This document shows, in pieces, positions 1-8,331 of a stretch of 64,000 nucleotides of DNA. Positions within the stretch are counted from its first letter, which is position 1. Each line of letters starts with the position of its first letter. The stretch is taken from the NCBI RefSeq assembly GCF_007858475.1, contig NZ_VIGX01000020.1:1-64000 (forward strand), read 5' to 3'. The stretch is from Tsukamurella conjunctivitidis. Lineage in GTDB: Bacteria; Actinomycetota; Actinomycetes; Mycobacteriales; Mycobacteriaceae. The notes under the pieces were generated by a model. It did not search any database and was not told the origin of the DNA. It saw nothing but the letters and a program-made list of their open reading frames with translations. The position numbers and the translations under genes are program-made.

Positions 1-65
1 TCCCGGGCAACCCGGACCACATCATCACGGAACTCTTTCGGATAAGGCTTAGGCACAGTAGTCAT
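1..65 (-). CDS. IS3-family transposase OrfA, N-terminal fragment (runs off the window)
   Basis: The minus-strand reading from ATG at 65-63 gives MTTVPKPYPKEFRDDVVRVA, the typical start of the helix-turn-helix OrfA of actinobacterial IS3-family elements (consensus near MPKPYPxEFRxDVVxVAR). A strong ribosome binding site GGAAGG lies immediately upstream (66-71). OrfA binds the terminal repeats and is usually joined to OrfB, the DDE integrase, by programmed -1 frameshifting; neither the rest of OrfA nor OrfB is in the window. Assignment rests on about 21 residues, but the motif is distinctive. Confidence 0.75.
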   Translation of the reverse strand, partial: MTTVPKPYPKEFRDDVVRVAR

Positions 66-100: not shown

Positions 101-308
101 GATGTCACCTAACCGTGCACCAGTCCCTACGTCTGAGCGGCTCGAGCGTGCAGGCTGGCGCGTCCTCAGATTCTGGGAGCACGAGGATGTCTCAGCAGTG
201 GTCGACAGCGTGCGCGCTGCTGTCGGGTCAGGTGCTGCCAGTTCCGCCGTCACGCGGAAGCCCTTGAGCAATCCTGGCGAGCCGCTACCCTCACCTCGTG
301 GAGCTTGA
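101..308 (+). pseudogene. vsr: Very short patch repair endonuclease (Vsr), C-terminal remnant cut by the IS
   Basis: The frame contains SERLERAGWRVLRFWEHEDV followed by SAVVDSVRAAV. This is the C-terminal signature of Vsr T:G mismatch endonucleases, which usually end ...LxAAGWxVLRFWEHEDPxAVVDRI. The N-terminal two thirds, including the metal-binding and nicking residues, are missing because an IS3-type element ends at about position 100. The ATG at 102 is probably fortuitous. Vsr repairs the T:G mismatches left by deamination of 5-methylcytosine and is often encoded beside C5 methyltransferases, which fits the methyltransferase gene 1 kb downstream. Its C-terminal codons overlap the start of the restriction gene (298) by 11 bases. 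Confidence 0.75.
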
Positions 309-1227
309 CGACCCTGACCTCAACGACGTCGTCGCTGCCCTGCGACGACTTGACCCTGATGGCGAGAGGACAGCTCAGGTCCTTCGCGACACGTTCGACC
401 AGCTCTACGACGGCGTTCGGACCAAGCGGTACAGCTGGGAACAGTTATTCAAGACTGAGAAAACCCACTTCGGAACCCTGATCGAGATCAATCTGCAGCG
501 CGAATTCAAGTTTGCTGACGGCGACAAGCTCGACTACCAAATTGCCGGCCACGATGTCGACGCGAAGTACAGCCAGAAGATGGGCTCATGGATGCTGCCG
601 CCCGAGGCTGTAAATCAGCTCTGCATGGTCGTCACCGCCAGCGATGTCGATTCATCCTTCTCGCTCGGCGTAGTTCGCGCCCGGGAAGAGTGGCTAGGCA
701 AAGGACAGAATCGTGACGCGAAACGGACGCTGTCGGCCGCCGGCCGCCCCCACATTCACTGGCTGACCCGCGACGGCGATCTCCCGCCGAACGTCCTGCT
801 TCACCTATCCCCTTCCGACATCGCAGCAATCTTCAAACCGAAGGGTGGCACTGCCCGCATCTCCGAGCTCTTCCGCAGAGCACCAGGCAAAATTGTCAGT
901 CGTGCAGCGGTGTGCACGGCAGCGGCACAGCTCGACCCGACACGACGCCTGCGGGGCGGCAAGGGTGGAGCTCGGGGTCCCTTGGCAGCCGAAGGCATGG
1001 TCATCCTGAGCGGCGCCTACGATTGGCAGGCACGCGCCGCTCGACAGCTCGGCCTCCCGGTCCCACGACGCACTGAGTACGTCTCCGCATACGTATCGCC
1101 CGCCAGCCCCGAGTGGGCCGGGCCAATCGCGGTTGGCAAGGACGGCGGGAGCCTAGTCCTCATGCCCGTCGAGCCGGCCAGCGCGACTGCATTCTCGACG
1201 GACTGGTACAGCGACAGCCTTGGGTAG
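298..1227 (+). CDS. NaeI-type type II restriction endonuclease
   Basis: This 309-residue protein closely matches my memory of NaeI (about 317 residues; type IIE, recognises GCCGGC, needs a second effector site). Diagnostic stretches are LDPDGERTAQVLRDTFDQLYDG (residues 18-39), KTEKTHFGTL.EINLQREF (52-70), WMLPPEA and RGGKGGARG near 219-227, the C-terminal DNA-binding half. The catalytic D-x8-D-x-K site is visible as D79, D88 and K90. Residues 31-41 form the segment that resembles the DNA ligase I active site in NaeI, where a leucine replaces the ligase lysine; that leucine (L36) is also present here. The start is GTG at 298. The cognate methyltransferase follows 58-70 bases downstream. Specificity for GCCGGC is inferred from similarity. 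Confidence 0.9.
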   Translation: MELDDPDLNDVVAALRRLDPDGERTAQVLRDTFDQLYDGVRTKRYSWEQLFKTEKTHFGTLIEINLQREFKFADGDKLDYQIAGHDVDAKYSQKMGSWMLPPEAVNQLCMVVTASDVDSSFSLGVVRAREEWLGKGQNRDAKRTLSAAGRPHIHWLTRDGDLPPNVLLHLSPSDIAAIFKPKGGTARISELFRRAPGKIVSRAAVCTAAAQLDPTRRLRGGKGGARGPLAAEGMVILSGAYDWQARAARQLGLPVPRRTEYVSAYVSPASPEWAGPIAVGKDGGSLVLMPVEPASATAFSTDWYSDSLG

Positions 1228-1284: not shown

Positions 1285-2622
1285 ATGATGGCGTCCATCA
1301 TGAGCGGAGAGACACGCAGCGACCTCACGGTCGTCGAGATTTGCGCAGGAGCAGGCGGCCAGAGCCTAGGCCTGCATCTTGCTGGGTTCCGCCACACTCT
1401 GGCCGTCGAGCTTGATGAGGACGCGGCTGCGACACTCGATCGCAATCTTCGACGTTTAGCAGACGATGAGGGTCTGGAGCAGCCAAAGGTAGCGATCGGG
1501 GATGTTGCCGATGAGTCGGTCTGGTCCCCTGAGGAACACCGGGGAGTCAGTCTGCTCGCCGGCGGCGTGCCATGCCCTCCGTTCTCTATCGCGGGACAGC
1601 AGAAGGGCGCAGAGGACGAGCGCGACCTGTTCGCCTGGGCGGTCGAGGCTGCGGGGCGCATGGAGCCCGACGCGATCCTGCTTGAGAACGTCCGCGGTCT
1701 CTCGATGCCGCGATTCGCCGGCTACCGCCAAGCAGTCCTCGACCGACTCGCCGAGCTTGGATACAAGGCGGACTGGCGCCTTCTGGAAGCTCGCGACTTT
1801 GGAGTACCTCAGCTCAGGCCACGGTTCATTCTCGTTGCGCTGAAGGAAGAATTCGCTCCATATTTCGCATGGCCCGAGCCAAGTGAAACTGCGCCGACCG
1901 TCGGCGAAGCGCTCAAGCCTCTCATGGCCGCGAGCGGCTGGCGTGGCGCGACCGCGTGGGCAAAGAAGGCCAATAGGATTGCGCCCACAATCGTTGGCGG
2001 CTCCAAGAAGCATGGCGGCCCCGATCTCGGCCCAACTCGTGCCAAGCATGCATGGATGCAACTGTCGGTCGATGGCTTCGGAGTCGCCAATGAGGCACCC
2101 ACCAAAGACACACCCGCCAACTATGTCCCGAAACTTACGAACGAGATGATCGCGCGCCTCCAAGGCTGGCACCAAGACCGCGCTAGCGAATACTACTGGG
2201 ATTTCGCTCCCGCGCGCGGGAAAAAGACCACGATTTACCGCCAGATCGGCAACGCCTTTCCACCCCCGGTTGCCCGTGCAGTCGGAGAGTCCATCGCGGC
2301 CGCACTGCGCAAGACTGGCGATGCGAAGGCGCCAACCGACGGTGATGCCCCCGAATTCCACGATGAGGTCTACAAGGCCTTGCGAGAACGCAGAAATTTC
2401 GTGTCGCTCGCTGGATTAAGCCGCGATCTCGGCAACACGATGCCCACGGACGAGATCGAGCGGCGAATCACGTTCCTAAGCCGAGACTTCGAGATAACTA
2501 CAGGGTCCCGAGGCGGCCGGACTACCTACAAGCTCGGAGAGTGGCGCGCCTTCCGTGGTCAATCTGACCATTCGAGACATCTTTCGTTTATTGAGAAGCA
2601 ATTGCGCGCACGGATCAGTTAA
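1285..2622 (+). CDS. DNA (cytosine-5-)-methyltransferase, probable NaeI-type modification enzyme
   Basis: C5-methyltransferase motifs occur in order: motif I VVEICAGAGGQSLG (AdoMet binding) near the N-terminus, motif IV GGVPCPPFS with the catalytic cysteine (codon near 1573), motif VI LLENVRGL, motif VIII-like FGVPQLRPRFILVAL, and motif X YRQIGNAFPPPVARAVG. The enzyme transfers a methyl group from AdoMet to cytosine C5 and should protect host sites from the adjacent endonuclease. About 95 residues follow motif X (from PEFHDEVYKALRERRNF), an extension beyond the minimal enzyme. The start is uncertain: GTG 1249 and ATG 1285, 1288 and 1300 share the frame and none has a clear ribosome binding site. 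I use the first ATG; 1300 would also leave motif I intact. Confidence 0.9.
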   Translation: MMASIMSGETRSDLTVVEICAGAGGQSLGLHLAGFRHTLAVELDEDAAATLDRNLRRLADDEGLEQPKVAIGDVADESVWSPEEHRGVSLLAGGVPCPPFSIAGQQKGAEDERDLFAWAVEAAGRMEPDAILLENVRGLSMPRFAGYRQAVLDRLAELGYKADWRLLEARDFGVPQLRPRFILVALKEEFAPYFAWPEPSETAPTVGEALKPLMAASGWRGATAWAKKANRIAPTIVGGSKKHGGPDLGPTRAKHAWMQLSVDGFGVANEAPTKDTPANYVPKLTNEMIARLQGWHQDRASEYYWDFAPARGKKTTIYRQIGNAFPPPVARAVGESIAAALRKTGDAKAPTDGDAPEFHDEVYKALRERRNFVSLAGLSRDLGNTMPTDEIERRITFLSRDFEITTGSRGGRTTYKLGEWRAFRGQSDHSRHLSFIEKQLRARIS

Positions 2623-2676: not shown

Positions 2677-3675
2677 ATGCATCGACGCCCAAACACGCAA
2701 ACCGTCCAGTGGTTCCTGGAACTTCACGCGTCCGGCCAGTTGAATCTCAACCCTAGTTACCAACGACGGTCTGTATGGAGCGACGATTACCGGCGTTTTT
2801 TCATCGACACCATCTTGAAAGACTTTCCTTGCCCCGCCATATATCTCGAGAACGAGACGCGCGCAGGAGCTCCAACGCGGCACAACGTTATCGATGGAAA
2901 GCAGCGCCTCGAAGCTATAATTGAGTTCACGATGGACAAGTTCCACTTAGGTTCCTACTTGGACGATGAGGATCTGGCTGACGCGTACTATTCTGATCTA
3001 CCTGAAAGCAAACAGCAGAAGTTCGTCGACTACGTTCTTAGCGTCGAGAATATCAGCCGTTCAAATCCCCACGAGATCAGAGAAGCCTTCGCGCGCCTAA
3101 ATCGGAACACAGCGAAACTCAACCGGCAAGAGCTACGTAAAGCCCAGTTCGACGGCGCATTCATCACAAAGATGACAAACCTCGCCCGGCACCCCTTCTG
3201 GAGCAAGATTAATGTGGCCACGCGTGCTAGAATTTCCCGAATGCAAGACGTAGAGTACGTCTCGGAAATTTTTATCCTCACAATGGATGGAATTCAGGAA
3301 GGAAGCGCGAACGCGCTGGACGAATATTATGCGCAGTACGACGAACAAATCCCCGACGAAGACCAGGCTCTGGATAGATTCGAAGAGATCCTACTGTGGA
3401 TGAATAACCTCCCCTTAGAATGGCGCAATACGCGATGGCGAAACCTGGGAGACTTCTACAGTTTGTGGGCCGCGAGAATTGCTCTCGGCGAGAGCATACC
3501 TGCCGACGATTCCACTGCAGAGAAACTTCGACTTCTCTCCGAACGCCTGGAGGAGCCGCGTTCTCCCGCAGAAATATCCTATAGCAATGCCGTTAGGCAG
3601 GGCACAAGCAAGGAAGCGAACCGGCGAATCCGTGCTGAGGTTCTCGCCGAGGTACTGATTAACGATCCGGAGTAG
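2677..3675 (+). CDS. DUF262 domain protein (ParB/GmrSD-like), probable defence component
   Basis: A 332-residue protein with the two hallmark DUF262 motifs: NPSYQRRSVWS (residues 25-35) and DGKQRLEAI (73-81). DUF262 is a ParB/Srx-like NTP-binding or nuclease fold found in GmrSD type IV restriction enzymes and other phage-defence proteins. The downstream DUF1524 HNH nuclease domain of GmrSD is not visible; the C-terminal half is an unassigned helical region. ATG 2677 is chosen because AAGAAGG at 2659-2665 is correctly spaced; TTG 2668 is too close. GC content drops noticeably here compared with smc. The next gene starts 3 bases after the stop, implying one transcript and coupled expression. 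A function in defence is inference from family and neighbours. Confidence 0.8.
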   Translation: MHRRPNTQTVQWFLELHASGQLNLNPSYQRRSVWSDDYRRFFIDTILKDFPCPAIYLENETRAGAPTRHNVIDGKQRLEAIIEFTMDKFHLGSYLDDEDLADAYYSDLPESKQQKFVDYVLSVENISRSNPHEIREAFARLNRNTAKLNRQELRKAQFDGAFITKMTNLARHPFWSKINVATRARISRMQDVEYVSEIFILTMDGIQEGSANALDEYYAQYDEQIPDEDQALDRFEEILLWMNNLPLEWRNTRWRNLGDFYSLWAARIALGESIPADDSTAEKLRLLSERLEEPRSPAEISYSNAVRQGTSKEANRRIRAEVLAEVLINDPE

Positions 3676-3678
3676 CTT

Positions 3679-4644
3679 GTGCTGATCACCGGAAGTGTTC
3701 TCAGTGCATACAATTCTGCACTCGAAGTCGCACTCGAGGTACAGAGACTCGCGGGTTCTAGGCTCCGCACGGTATGCGCAGACAATCATTGGCTCTTCGA
3801 TGACAGAATCAAAACAGCCGAGAGCGCTCTATCGAAGGTTGAATCTGGACGGGGCGGCTTCGGCGACCTCAATGATCTCTACGCCGCAATGATTGTCGTT
3901 CCAACTCGAAACCAGATCGAACCGGCGATGTTGGAACTGGAGCCAGTCGTCACCTATCAAACCAAGGTGCGGAGCAACGGCAAGCATGATTCGTTCGCGT
4001 ACGACGATGTTCACCTCATCGCCACACTTGAAGGTAAAGTCAGCCCAGCCGTAGTGTCGTCTAATGTCCGAGAACGACGCTTCGAGGTGCAGGTACGAAC
4101 AGGACTTCAGTACGCTTGGTGGAGCGCGACTCATGATCAGATTTACAAGAGCGTATCGAGCGGAAGAATCGGATGGCACACGCTCAGAACTTCGAGCCAG
4201 GCGCGTGCAGCTTTAGAAATGCTTGATGGTATCCTTACCGATCTAGAAGCAGCTTCACAGCTGCATCAGAGCCAGAGTATTGATCCACCTGACAACGAAA
4301 ATGACACCAAGTACGAGAACTGGCTCAGCCTTTGGCGACCGGACAGACGTCCACATAACGTTCTTCGATTCGTCGAAACAGCGCGAAGCCTCGTCGAATC
4401 ATGCAATGTGGAGTTCGATACTATCGACAAGCTTCTCAAGACATCTGGGTTTTCCACCATCCTAGCTGATACGCTCGTGACGCCGCTTCAGGCCATAGCC
4501 ATTGCGCTACTTAGGATTGTGCCCTTCTCAGAATTCGAAGATTCACTCCGCCGAAATCATGCCAAAATCATGGTAACTGCAGAGGCGGTCGCACATCAGC
4601 CTGACCTAGGCACCTTGCGCGGCGATGTAGTAGTGCGATTGTGA
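3679..4644 (+). CDS. RelA/SpoT-type nucleotidyltransferase domain protein (small alarmone synthetase-like)
   Basis: A 321-residue protein whose first 160 residues carry the RelA/SpoT synthetase pattern: DRIKTAESALSKVE (42-55, like the RxKSxxS..KK segment), FGDLNDLYAAMIVV (61-74, with the metal-binding Asp at 66), SFAYDDVHLIATL (105-117, Tyr108 and His112 where the family has GYxSxH), and FEVQVRTGLQYAWWSATHD (135-153, with the Mg-binding Glu136) ending in IYK. There is no HD hydrolase, TGS or ACT domain, so it resembles monofunctional small alarmone synthetases or toxSAS toxins, which make (p)ppGpp-like nucleotides or pyrophosphorylate tRNA. The C-terminal 160 residues are unassigned. It begins with GTG 3 bases after the DUF262 gene. 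Toxin or defence function is inferred. Confidence 0.75.
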   Translation: MLITGSVLSAYNSALEVALEVQRLAGSRLRTVCADNHWLFDDRIKTAESALSKVESGRGGFGDLNDLYAAMIVVPTRNQIEPAMLELEPVVTYQTKVRSNGKHDSFAYDDVHLIATLEGKVSPAVVSSNVRERRFEVQVRTGLQYAWWSATHDQIYKSVSSGRIGWHTLRTSSQARAALEMLDGILTDLEAASQLHQSQSIDPPDNENDTKYENWLSLWRPDRRPHNVLRFVETARSLVESCNVEFDTIDKLLKTSGFSTILADTLVTPLQAIAIALLRIVPFSEFEDSLRRNHAKIMVTAEAVAHQPDLGTLRGDVVVRL

Positions 4645-4746: not shown

Positions 4747-7700
4747 TCATACGGGCAGCGCGCCCAGCTCCTGTCCACGAATCCGTTGTGAGATGACCTG
4801 GGTGATCCCGTCCCCACGCATTGACACACCGTAGAGAGCGTCGGCGACTTCCATCGTCGGCTTCTGGTGCGTGATGACGATGAGCTGGGACTTGTCGCGC
4901 AGCTGCTCGAACAGGGAGATCAGGCGTCGGAGGTTGGTGTCGTCCAGGGCCGCCTCGACCTCGTCCATCACGTAGAAGGGTGACGGCCGGGCGCGGAAGA
5001 TGGCGACCAGCATGGCGACGGCGGTCAGGGACTTCTCGCCGCCGGACAGGAGCGAGAGACGCTTGACCTTCTTGCCCGGAGGCCGGGCCTCGACGTCGAT
5101 GCCCGTCGTCAGCATGTCGCCCGGCTCGGTGAGGATCAGCTTGCCCTCGCCGCCGGGGAACAGGGTCTTGAACACCTCGACGAACTCGCGCTCCACGTCC
5201 ACCCAGGCCTCGGTGAACACCTGCAGGATCTTGGCGTCCACCTCCTCGACCACACTCAGCAGATCCTCGCGGGCCGACTTCACGTCCTCGAGCTGAGTGG
5301 AGAGGAAGTTGTAGCGCTCCTCCAGCGCCGCGAACTCCTCCAGCGCCAACGGGTTCACGCGCCCGAGCGTCGCGAGGTCCTTCTCCGCGAGCTTGAGCCG
5401 GCGCTCCTGCACCGCCCGGTCGAACGGCAGCCCCTGCGGCTTCACCACCGTCTCGCCGCGCTCGCGCGCCGCCTCGTATTCCTCCAGCTCCAGCGCAGAC
5501 GCGGGCAACAGAACGTCCGGCCCATACTCGGCGACCAGATCATCGGGCGACATCGCGAACGACGCCACCACCTGCTCCTCGAGCTGCTCGATCCGCAGCG
5601 CCGCCTGCGCCCGCGCCACCTCGTCGCGGTGCACCGCATCCGTCAGCTGCGCGAGCCGAGCTGCGAGCGCGGTCGATTCCTGCCGCGCGACGTCCAGCGC
5701 GCCGGCGCGCTGCGCGCGTGATGCCTCCAGCGCATCACGATGCGCAGCAGCCCTCGTCACCGCGCGCCCCAACCGCGAGGACACCAACGCGGCGCCCTCC
5801 GCCACCGACGAAGCCACCGCGGCGGCAGCGAGCCGAGAAGCCGCCGCAGCCTCCGCCCGCTCCCGCGCGGCCCGCTCGGCCGCGGCGGCCCGTCGAAGCC
5901 CTTCGGCCTTGCCTCGCACGCCGGCCGCGCGCTCCTCGGCGGTGCGGCGGGCGAGCCGGGCCTCCATCTCGACCGAACGCGCCGCAGCCAGGGCGGCAGC
6001 AGCCGCATCCCGCTCATCGGTCCCCACGGACACCGAATCGTCCGGCAGGGCTTCCGCGAGACGCAGTCGCTCCTCGTGCTCCACCAGCGCGGCCCGAGTC
6101 TCATCCCGCGAGCCCTCGATCCGGGTTCGCTGCGCCACCAGACGCTCCGCCTCGTCGCGCGCGCTCCGCGCTGCCTGCCCCAGCCGGGCCAGCTGCTCGT
6201 AGATCGCGCCGAGCTGGGAATCCGACTCGTGCAGCGCCGCCAGTGCCGACTCCGTGACCTCGCGCCGCGCGGCCAAGTCCTCGTTCGCCCCGGCCAGCGC
6301 CGCCGACAGCGACTCCACCGACCGCCGGGTCTCCCCCAGCGTCGCCTCGGCCGCGTCGATCGACTTCTGCACCTCCAGGGTGGACTGCCGCGCCGCGGAG
6401 CCGCCGGTCAGCACCCCGTGGGAGATGACGTCACCGTCGGACGTGACGGCCCGCAGCTCGGGCCGCGCGGCGATTACGGCAACCGCGTCCGCCACCGAAG
6501 GCACGAGCACGTACCCGGCCAGCGCCGCGGAAACCGCCCCTTCCAACGACGACGGTGCGTCCACGCACGACACGGCCCAGACGGCACCGTCGGGCAGGGG
6601 GCCGGACGGCACGGTGCCGGGCGCGACGCCCTCGATGACGACGGCCGCCCGGCCCCCGTCCGCCTCGCGCAGCCGCTCGACAGCCGTCACGGCCGCATCG
6701 ACGGAGCCCGCCGCCACGGCCTCCGCCACCGGGCCCAGCGCCACCGCGACGGCCTTCTCGTAGCCGCTGCGGATCGACAGCCGTGACGCGACCGCAGCGG
6801 TCACACCGTCGACGTGCTCGACGACCCAGGCGGCGCCGTCGCCCCGGTCGAGGTTCATCGACAGCGCCTCGATGCGCGCGACCAGCGAGGCGACCTTCTG
6901 CTCGGCCTCCCGCTCCGAGGCGCGCAGCTCCTCCACCCGCGCGCTCGCGGCGTTGAACGCGGCGACGCTGCGCTCGTGATGCTCGTCGAGCGAGGCCTCG
7001 GAGGCGTCGAGCTCGGCGATCTGCCCCTGGACCTGCTCGAACTCGGACTCTGCGGCCTCGGCCCGCTCGACCGCCTCAGCGATCGCGGCGGTGAGCCGTC
7101 CGGATTCGGACTCCACGGATTCGGCGCGGGTGCGAAGGGTCTCGACCTGGCCGGCGAGGCGGGCCAGCCCTTCTCGACGGTCCGCGATGGCCGCGACGGC
7201 GGCCATGTGCGCCTTCTCCGCGTCCCGGGCCGACTCCTCGCGCGACGCCAGCTCTTCCGTCGCCTCCTCGAGGATCATGGCGGCCTCCTCGAGGGCCTCC
7301 ATGAGCTCGGCCTCCTCCTCGGCGACGCGCTCGGCCTCGGCCTCCAGCTCCTCGGGGTCGCGGCCGGGGGCGTGCTGCACGGGCTCCGACAGCAGGCGGG
7401 CGCGCTCGGAGGCGATCCGCTCCGTCGAGGAGACGCGCTCGGCGAGCGCGGACAACGAGAACCAGCCCTCCCCCGCGGCCTTCACCGCGGGGTCGAGCGC
7501 GGCCACGGCCTCCGAGTGCTCCGCGACCAGTGCGTTCGCCTCGTCCAGCTGTTCAGCGACGAGATTCTGCTCCTCACGCACCGCCGCCTCGTTGCCGCTC
7601 TGGTCGGCCAGTTCGGCGCGCCTGCGCACCAGGTCGTCGGCGGCGAGGCGCAGCCGGGCGTCGCGGAGGTCGGCCTGGATGGTCTGCGCCCGACGGGCCA

Positions 7701-8331
7701 CCTCGGCCTGCCGCCCCAGCGGCTTGAGTTGGCGGCGCAGCTCCGTCGTCAGGTCGGTGAGCCGGGCGAGGTTGGCCTGCATCGAGTCGAGCTTGCGGAC
7801 CGCCTTCTCCTTGCGCCGGCGGTGCTTGAGCACGCCGGCCGCCTCCTCGATGAAGGCGCGACGCTCCTCGGGCTTCGATTCGAGGATCGCGGCGAGCTGC
7901 CCCTGCCCGACGATGACGTGCATCTCGCGACCGATGCCGGAGTCCGAGAGCAGCTCCTGCACGTCCATGAGGCGGCACTTGGTGCCGTTGATCTCGTACT
8001 CACCGGCGCCGTCGCGGAACATGCGCCGCGTGATGGAGACCTCGGAGTAGTCGATGGGTAGCGCACCGTCGGAGTTGTCGATGGTGAGCGTGACCTCGGC
8101 CCGGCCCAGCGGCGCGCGACCGGACGTGCCGGCGAAGATGACGTCCTCCATCTTGCCGCCGCGCAGGCCCTTGGCACCCTGCTCGCCCATCACCCAGCGC
8201 AGGGCGTCGAGAATGTTCGACTTGCCCGAGCCGTTGGGTCCGACGACGCAGGTGATACCCGGTTCGAGGCGCAGAGTCGTCGCCGAAGCGAAGGACTTGA
8301 AGCCCTTCAGTGTCAGCGACTTGAGATACAC
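4747..8331 (-). CDS. smc: Chromosome partition protein SMC
   Basis: A full-length 1194-residue SMC. The N-terminal ATPase half has Walker [10 protein letters not shown] (near residue 32), a long first coiled coil rich in Glu, Ala and Arg, a Gly/Ala/Val-rich hinge around residues 490-640, a second coiled coil, and a C-terminal half with the signature [14 protein letters not shown] and Walker [19 protein letters not shown] homodimers with ScpA and ScpB condense and segregate the chromosome. It starts with GTG at 8331. Upstream genes run in the same direction. In mycobacteria ftsY follows smc, but here the downstream side is the restriction island, so ftsY is either displaced beyond it or elsewhere. 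Confidence 0.98.

Follow-up and report, generated by a model that had tools for sequence, protein, structure and literature searches.

What does a gene for a RelA/SpoT synthetase-domain protein do directly behind a DUF262 gene, do such pairs recur across genomes, and do they form a system of their own? The question is raised by the window (the whole stretch of 64,000 nucleotides analysed here, located on contig C121 of the 343 contigs of the host genome). The arrangement outlined in a preliminary description of this DNA is borne out: the DUF262 gene (protein P0001) is followed after 3 bases, both on the + strand, by the gene for a 321-residue protein (P0002) whose synthetase domain is supported by Pfam and by its SAS fold, and the pair does sit beside restriction-modification genes (Table 1). 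The endonuclease and the methyltransferase that make up a type II system are encoded at 298-1227 and 1300-2622 and not by the pair itself; position 1300 is our choice of start, the methyltransferase ORF being open from 1249. Downstream of the pair lies a long ORF on the opposite strand (4747-8331), which we read as smc, and the frame at the contig edge is presumably an IS3-type OrfA. The GC content is 52-54% in the pair, 60-66% in the restriction-gene stretch and 66-76% in the chromosome beyond. Rfam and tRNA scans near the pair gave no match.

Table 1. Coordinates of the pair, its motifs and its neighbours in the window
Feature	Position	Strand	Remark
N-terminal end of transposase-like frame, contig edge, beside restriction genes	3..65	-	translation
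NaeI-family type II restriction endonuclease, neighbour	298..1227	+	PF09126 E 3e-102
C5-cytosine DNA methyltransferase, neighbour	1300..2622	+	PF00145 E 2e-53; PADLOC MTase_II E 1.5e-216
P0001, DUF262/GmrSD_N protein (ParB/Srx-like fold), proposed sensor or gate	2677..3675	+	alternative start TTG 2668
D-G-K-Q-R nucleotide-pocket motif of DUF262	2893..2907	+	invariant in 18-sequence alignment A5
P0002, RelA/SpoT synthetase-domain protein (small pyrophosphotransferase), proposed effector, 321 residues	3679..4644	+	PF04607, SAS fold
Donor-triphosphate site R43-x-K45-x3-S49-x3-K53	3805..3837	+	kept in 23/23 readable family members
Catalytic Asp66 and Met71 (Met71 replaces adenine-clamp Arg)	3874..3891	+	Asp in 23/23 family members
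Acceptor loop F-A-Y-D-D-V-H, residues 106-112	3994..4014	+	F-x-F-D-D-[LV]-R in most relatives
E136-x-Q138 catalytic pair	4084..4092	+	24/24
C-terminal mainly helical region, residues 206-321, no domain recognised	4294..4641	+	model helices

Searches for relatives were driven by the synthetase and not by DUF262, which left DUF262 free to be absent. They covered 397 genomes of the order (with the single protein), plasmids, contigs of 84,980 species (18 loci) and viral contigs, and, also with the synthetase, 396 genomes of the phylum and 394 genomes of the class. This gave 24 distinct family loci from bacteria and one archaeal contig (the window, L024, L025, L029, L032-L041, L043-L045, L047-L049, L056, L073, L074 and L083). 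The record titles name Flavobacteriia, Pseudomonas, Obscuribacterales, Nitrosopumilus (the archaeon), Nitrospira, Methylocystis, Myxococcales, Microbacterium, Arthrobacter, Nocardioides, Gallionella, Modestobacter, Rhodospirillales, Okibacterium and Planctomycetaceae, as well as Rhizobium plasmids; we take these taxa to represent several bacterial phyla. Duplicates were left out of the counts (L003, L004, L005, L026, L042, L046, L050 and L082). Also outside the 24 are L108, found by its DUF262, where DUF262 is broken and the synthetase is a 257-residue piece, and L094, where a methyltransferase and a DUF262 gene are followed by the contig end. The module is rare, with family-level matches in 2/397, 2/396 and 2/394 genomes of the order, phylum and class, the window's own match included in each. 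Among phage records, P0002 found no match, and query P0006 found one ordinary SAS, in a Vibrio phage.

The two genes are tightly coupled. A DUF262 gene lies directly upstream and codirectional in all 24 loci, although interrupted by an insertion in L074 and cut by the contig edge in L083, whereas no matching DUF262 gene occurs at any of 40 distinct loci of other SAS (usually ~1.5 kb a side, less at contig ends). The same DUF262 profile does detect more distant DUF262 genes (L063-L070, 142-239 bits). Given 24/24 against 0/40, chance neighbourhood was rejected. The 40 leave out L006, L007, L009 and L014, which are the same places as L030, L031, L086 and L055; all four are included in the 44 other-SAS rows used for Fisher tests. 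The gap between the two genes ranges from -26 to +17 bases (21 loci measured), and DUF262 and synthetase distances correlate (r 0.83, 0/5000 permutations as high, 19 loci), a correlation equally expected if the locus had been inherited as one unit. In trees computed with 37 of the 40 other SAS, rows of >45% gaps being dropped, the 24 loci form one clade (ultrafast bootstrap 100; FastTree support 0.996 and 0.992; the FastTree family branch carries the label 0.147 after re-rooting, and 0.996 was read without re-rooting). The recurrence of DUF262/RelA-SpoT pairs is thus established for several phyla. Mobile elements have entered some of the loci: according to the annotation, an IS5 element divides the synthetase gene of L025, and the insertion in the L074 DUF262 gene (L074:3885-5515) carries an N6_N4 methylase and, by eye, a resolvase-like ORF.

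Is P0002 an alarmone synthetase? RelA_SpoT (PF04607; 28.2 bits, just above the Pfam cut-off of 27) is its only Pfam match, and its structure model matches solved SAS structures. Both the SAS fold and the donor/metal residues that characterize toxSAS are present. By motif, its donor-site residues pair with R64, K66, S70 and K74 of FaRel2, which bind an ATP analogue according to the active-site description in PMC11782079. In the clade, R, K, S, K, D, E and Q of the donor/metal site are invariant at a median pairwise identity of 35% (21 aligned rows). The acceptor side is altered. The adenine-clamp Arg occurs in 0/23 readable family members versus 40/40 distinct other SAS; the N-terminal piece of L025, counted among 45 'other' SAS rows, also lacks it and has Thr instead. 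Compared with the reference loop G-Y-x-[SG]-x-H, Phe replaces Tyr in 22/24 members and Arg replaces His in 22/24, the two residues being retained in the window (Tyr108, His112) and in its nearest relative, L056. The 'complete motif set' of the preliminary description therefore has to be corrected: the donor/metal site and the Tyr and His of the window stand, and the adenine clamp is missing. The name alarmone synthetase cannot be kept as it was written: because the clade lacks the adenine-clamp Arg and has a mostly different acceptor loop, P0002 is, judged by these residues, no typical alarmone synthetase; they rather suggest a pyrophosphotransferase that is active but has an unpredicted acceptor. 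Nor is an ordinary (p)ppGpp enzyme the default reading, since the host genome has two further RelA_SpoT genes and the acceptor residues differ. Toxicity by the known chemistry cannot be assumed either, because the toxSAS acceptor clamp is absent and a Tyr-to-Phe change at the acceptor-loop position is described as impairing the FaRel2 toxin (PMC11782079). The C-terminal region, for which the preliminary description suggested a possible trigger or antitoxin-like role, is weakly conserved, lies outside the span matched to solved SAS structures and has no Pfam or PADLOC match. Elsewhere, SAS-like genes were seen as accessory cargo at L071:2869-3879 (Vibrio filamentous phage), at L027:3872-4945 (Bacteroides plasmid with phage genes) and at L028:436-1572 on a 3.5 kb Klebsiella plasmid.

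P0001 matches PF03235 (DUF262) in Pfam with E 6.6e-22, the domain that is also present in GmrSD, and has a ParB/BrxU-like fold. Its nucleotide-pocket motif resembles the D-G-Q-Q-R motif described for GmrS and SspE (PMC10952713). The DUF1524 HNH-type nuclease of GmrSD was found in neither P0001 nor P0002, and P0001 matches no other nuclease family (Pfam, up to E 1 in both cases); nuclease activity may possibly reside in the DUF262 fold itself. A known antitoxin domain was not found in P0001. A YxxY-like neutralization motif was considered and rejected as too weak, since [YF]-A-x-[YFH] is common in the family but also present in 2/8 other DUF262 proteins. All matches from a sequence search of solved structures with P0001, P0002 and the DUF262 profile A5 were taken as chance.

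Distant DUF262 genes were seen with other partners. On plasmids of Asticcacaulis and Pseudanabaena, a DUF262 gene overlaps a protein kinase gene (L064:2983-5129 and L068:2983-5227), which may be a sister module using the kinase as effector. At L097, L098, L101, L102, L105, L106 and L070, from viral contigs and one E. coli phage record, DUF262 is followed by an ORF of ~216-222 residues, for which four tested examples gave no Pfam match over the cut-off. At L099, L103, L104 and L107, an ORF of ~200 residues with, by eye, a nucleotidyltransferase-like pattern precedes DUF262 (at L104 the only ORF listed there is shorter, with 102 residues); two that were tested had no Pfam match.

The proximity to restriction genes, pointed out for the window at the start, is a recurrent property of the family. 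The pair has a restriction or methyltransferase gene, annotated as such or reaching a Pfam cut-off, no more than a few genes away in 19/24 loci (the window, L024, L025, L029, L032, L033, L034, L036-L041, L044, L048, L049, L056, L073 and L074). Such genes are unproven in the other 5/24: L043 has sub-threshold Eco57I and N6_Mtase matches, for L045 there is just a methyltransferase match in PADLOC, the surroundings of L047 (on a contig of 3.5 kb) and of L083 (next to a contig end) are mostly beyond the sequence, and none was recognized in L035, whose neighbours were included in the pooled scan and one PADLOC scan. L035 is a Nitrosopumilus MAG contig that carries the pair; its other ORFs look to us like archaeal ribosomal and polymerase genes. 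At L056, a Vsr-like ORF and an unnamed ORF stand between C5-methyltransferases and the pair, and the pooled neighbour scan has one Vsr match. A BsuBI/PstI endonuclease accompanies the pair in 8/24 loci (L025, L034, L036, L037, L039, L041, L049 and L074), a family present in 6/396 genomes of the window's phylum.

Among 59 neighbour proteins of family loci, the window's two included, Eco57I matched 14 and BsuBI_PstI_RE 8, counting the matches listed (25 of 55 families); these proteins were hand-picked from ORF calls, and many ORFs deemed spurious were left out. For comparison, 80 neighbours were picked by script at 14 control loci (8 with other SAS and 6 with other DUF262). They had no BsuBI/PstI, Eco57I or C5-methylase among the families listed (25 of 54), which include one N6_N4_Mtase and one ResIII match; a single restriction gene could possibly be present among the controls outside the families listed. 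Eight other DUF262 loci, which we chose among the top entries of 90 plasmid and 253 phage records, show no annotated restriction-modification gene within ~3 kb a side, by annotation only, which is less sensitive. Conversely, the module is not a fixed part of BsuBI/PstI systems, because six such loci of the phylum sample have no DUF262 or SAS within ~1.5 kb a side at most.

The chromosomal position was compared in three congeners, which carry different cargo in the stretch 3' of the same long gene (4747-8331 in the window). Two of them encode a C5-methyltransferase together with a GHKL ATPase. In one (G191, L115) the ATPase is joined to Hypoth_Ymh, a domain that is counted as a HEPN family in the survey PMC3710099, and in the other (G238, L116) to a TIR match that stays below the cut-off. 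In the third (G313, L117), an AAA ATPase is accompanied by an ORF that matches no family. The spot therefore exchanges cassettes, two of the three restriction-like, and looks like a defence hot spot.

That the pair is no named system, as had been suggested, agrees with both sources consulted: PADLOC-DB 2023 gave no such system (best model for P0002, E 0.0015), and among the open-access papers in PMC none joins DUF262/GmrSD with RelA SpoT or DUF262 with alarmone. Among known systems, the synthetase comes closest to toxSAS and CapRel (FaRel2, PhRel2, CapRel-SJ46), which have the same SAS fold, R-x-K-x3-S-x3-K donor site, Asp and E-x-Q; in a sequence-profile search CapRel was the first match with a solved structure (E 5.6e-4), and Q-x-x-W after E-x-Q is common to the family, CapRel and most other SAS matches. 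In contrast, the toxSAS adenine-clamp Arg on the catalytic-Asp strand (FaRel2 R95, CapRel R116) corresponds to Met71, the G-loop Tyr that stacks the acceptor base is mostly Phe in the family, and the family has its own helical C-terminus and a DUF262 partner. The hallmark of toxSAS is growth arrest by tRNA-CCA pyrophosphorylation or ppApp, neutralized by a partner. In CapRel, a C-terminal pseudo-zinc-finger is fused to the synthetase; the P0002 C-terminus is mainly helical in the model, and structure matches to CapRel span residues 1-184 only. The PADLOC candidate PDC-S33 (the 'S' presumably denoting a single-gene candidate) is the SAS-like model behind the P0002 match; it fits the relative L056 with E 3.6e-7 and an ordinary SAS better (L071, E 1.3e-17).

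On the DUF262 side, the pair differs from the type IV restriction systems GmrSD, BrxU and SspE in having a separate synthetase gene and no DUF1524 nuclease, and a GmrSD pair was rejected on the latter ground. The top PADLOC models for P0001 are NsnA (E 4.2e-36) and PD-T4-2_A (E 5.8e-24). We assign the Nsn genes to Menshen. Menshen (NsnABC) and PD-T4-2 likewise combine a DUF262 protein with other effector genes; the partner here is a RelA/SpoT synthetase, there an OLD nuclease or a HEPN protein, as summarized in PMC10952713. NsnB and NsnC had no match in P0002 or P0003 (up to E 0.1), nor in P0004 among the matches listed (25 of 61). Menshen was consequently rejected, only an NsnA-like protein being present, and so was PD-T4-2, the partner being RelA_SpoT and not HEPN. 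The operon plan also recalls, by description and not by sequence, the HEPN family MAE_28990, reported as the toxin-like effector in operons with a DNA methylase and a ParB-like nuclease (PMC3710099); a synthetase takes the place of HEPN here.

The pair is probably an undescribed virus-defence module of diverse bacteria and one archaeon. For its workings, we lean towards one module that rides mostly with type II restriction-modification, in which DUF262 would gate and the synthetase would arrest the cell. We favour a defence module because DUF262 is strictly upstream in the family and absent from other SAS loci, the gaps are tight, the partners co-diverge and the loci form a single clade; because restriction genes are near in most loci, GC is low and the donor/metal residues are invariant; because the congener spot holds C5-methyltransferase and GHKL ATPase cassettes; and because related proteins act in defence. 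Thus, PMC10952713 describes DUF262 genes as required for defence in Menshen and Dazbog and the SspE nuclease domain as turned on by DUF262 NTPase activity, and PMC9712102 presents CapRel as a RelA/SpoT-superfamily synthetase acting in phage defence. We propose nucleotide binding, sensing and gating for DUF262, and toxicity through some acceptor, with an abortive outcome, for the synthetase. The DUF262 protein would bind nucleotide and probably sense either the state of DNA or a trigger of phage or anti-restriction origin. In the resting state, the synthetase would be either held off by it or left without activation. Once restriction is overcome or the trigger met, an NTP-driven change of DUF262 would release or activate the synthetase, which would use a nucleoside triphosphate as pyrophosphate donor for an acceptor in the cell; growth would stop and the phage would die along with the cell.

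The roles might be reversed, the synthetase sensing and making an unusual nucleotide that the NTP pocket of DUF262 binds as a signal, as in CBASS; DUF262 itself could then be the effector. The invariant nucleotide motif, the ParB/BrxU-like fold and an acceptor site rebuilt as a new product would need are in keeping with this order, yet no nuclease family was recognized in P0001 (Pfam, up to E 1), and distant DUF262 proteins beside kinases and unassigned partners suit a shared sensor with exchangeable effectors, so we hold it to be unlikely. The tight coupling, the restriction linkage and the co-divergence of the partners would be expected equally of a plain toxin-antitoxin or addiction cassette that stabilizes the restriction-modification locus, with DUF262 as antitoxin and no phage trigger. 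We doubt it, since DUF262 has a conserved NTPase-like fold, to our knowledge no antitoxin fold. Moreover, DUF262 proteins of the systems described in PMC10952713 act in defence.

A guard of the restriction enzyme, comparable to PrrC with its type I enzyme, would watch the restriction-modification proteins and fire when an anti-restriction protein disables them. Recurrence beside different type II systems (NaeI with C5, PstI-type with N6, Eco57I-type) fits such a guard, but these partners belong to different Pfam families, which makes one common binding surface unlikely, and the archaeal locus has no recognized restriction partner; we give this explanation little chance. A decayed or regulatory alarmone enzyme with no defence role, which the lost adenine-clamp Arg and, in most members, the lost Tyr and His might suggest, is very improbable given unvarying donor/metal residues and a restriction-linked, low-GC context.

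Beyond the gated module that we favour, we tentatively entertain a broader possibility: the family may be a separate kind of enzyme, transferring pyrophosphate to an acceptor without known precedent among RelA/SpoT enzymes (a protein, the end of a nucleic acid or another nucleotide). It would then be coupled to type II restriction as a suicidal second line of defence, and would belong to a broader class of DUF262 sensors with exchangeable effectors (synthetase, kinase, HEPN, nuclease).

If the proposed module is real, alarmone-synthetase-type toxins would be tied to classical restriction-modification, and restriction systems would gain a back-up that arrests the cell rather than cutting. The family would represent a RelA/SpoT clade whose acceptor site has been rebuilt and whose substrate could be searched for directly, and would strengthen the view of DUF262 as a sensor module of general use that combines with different effectors.
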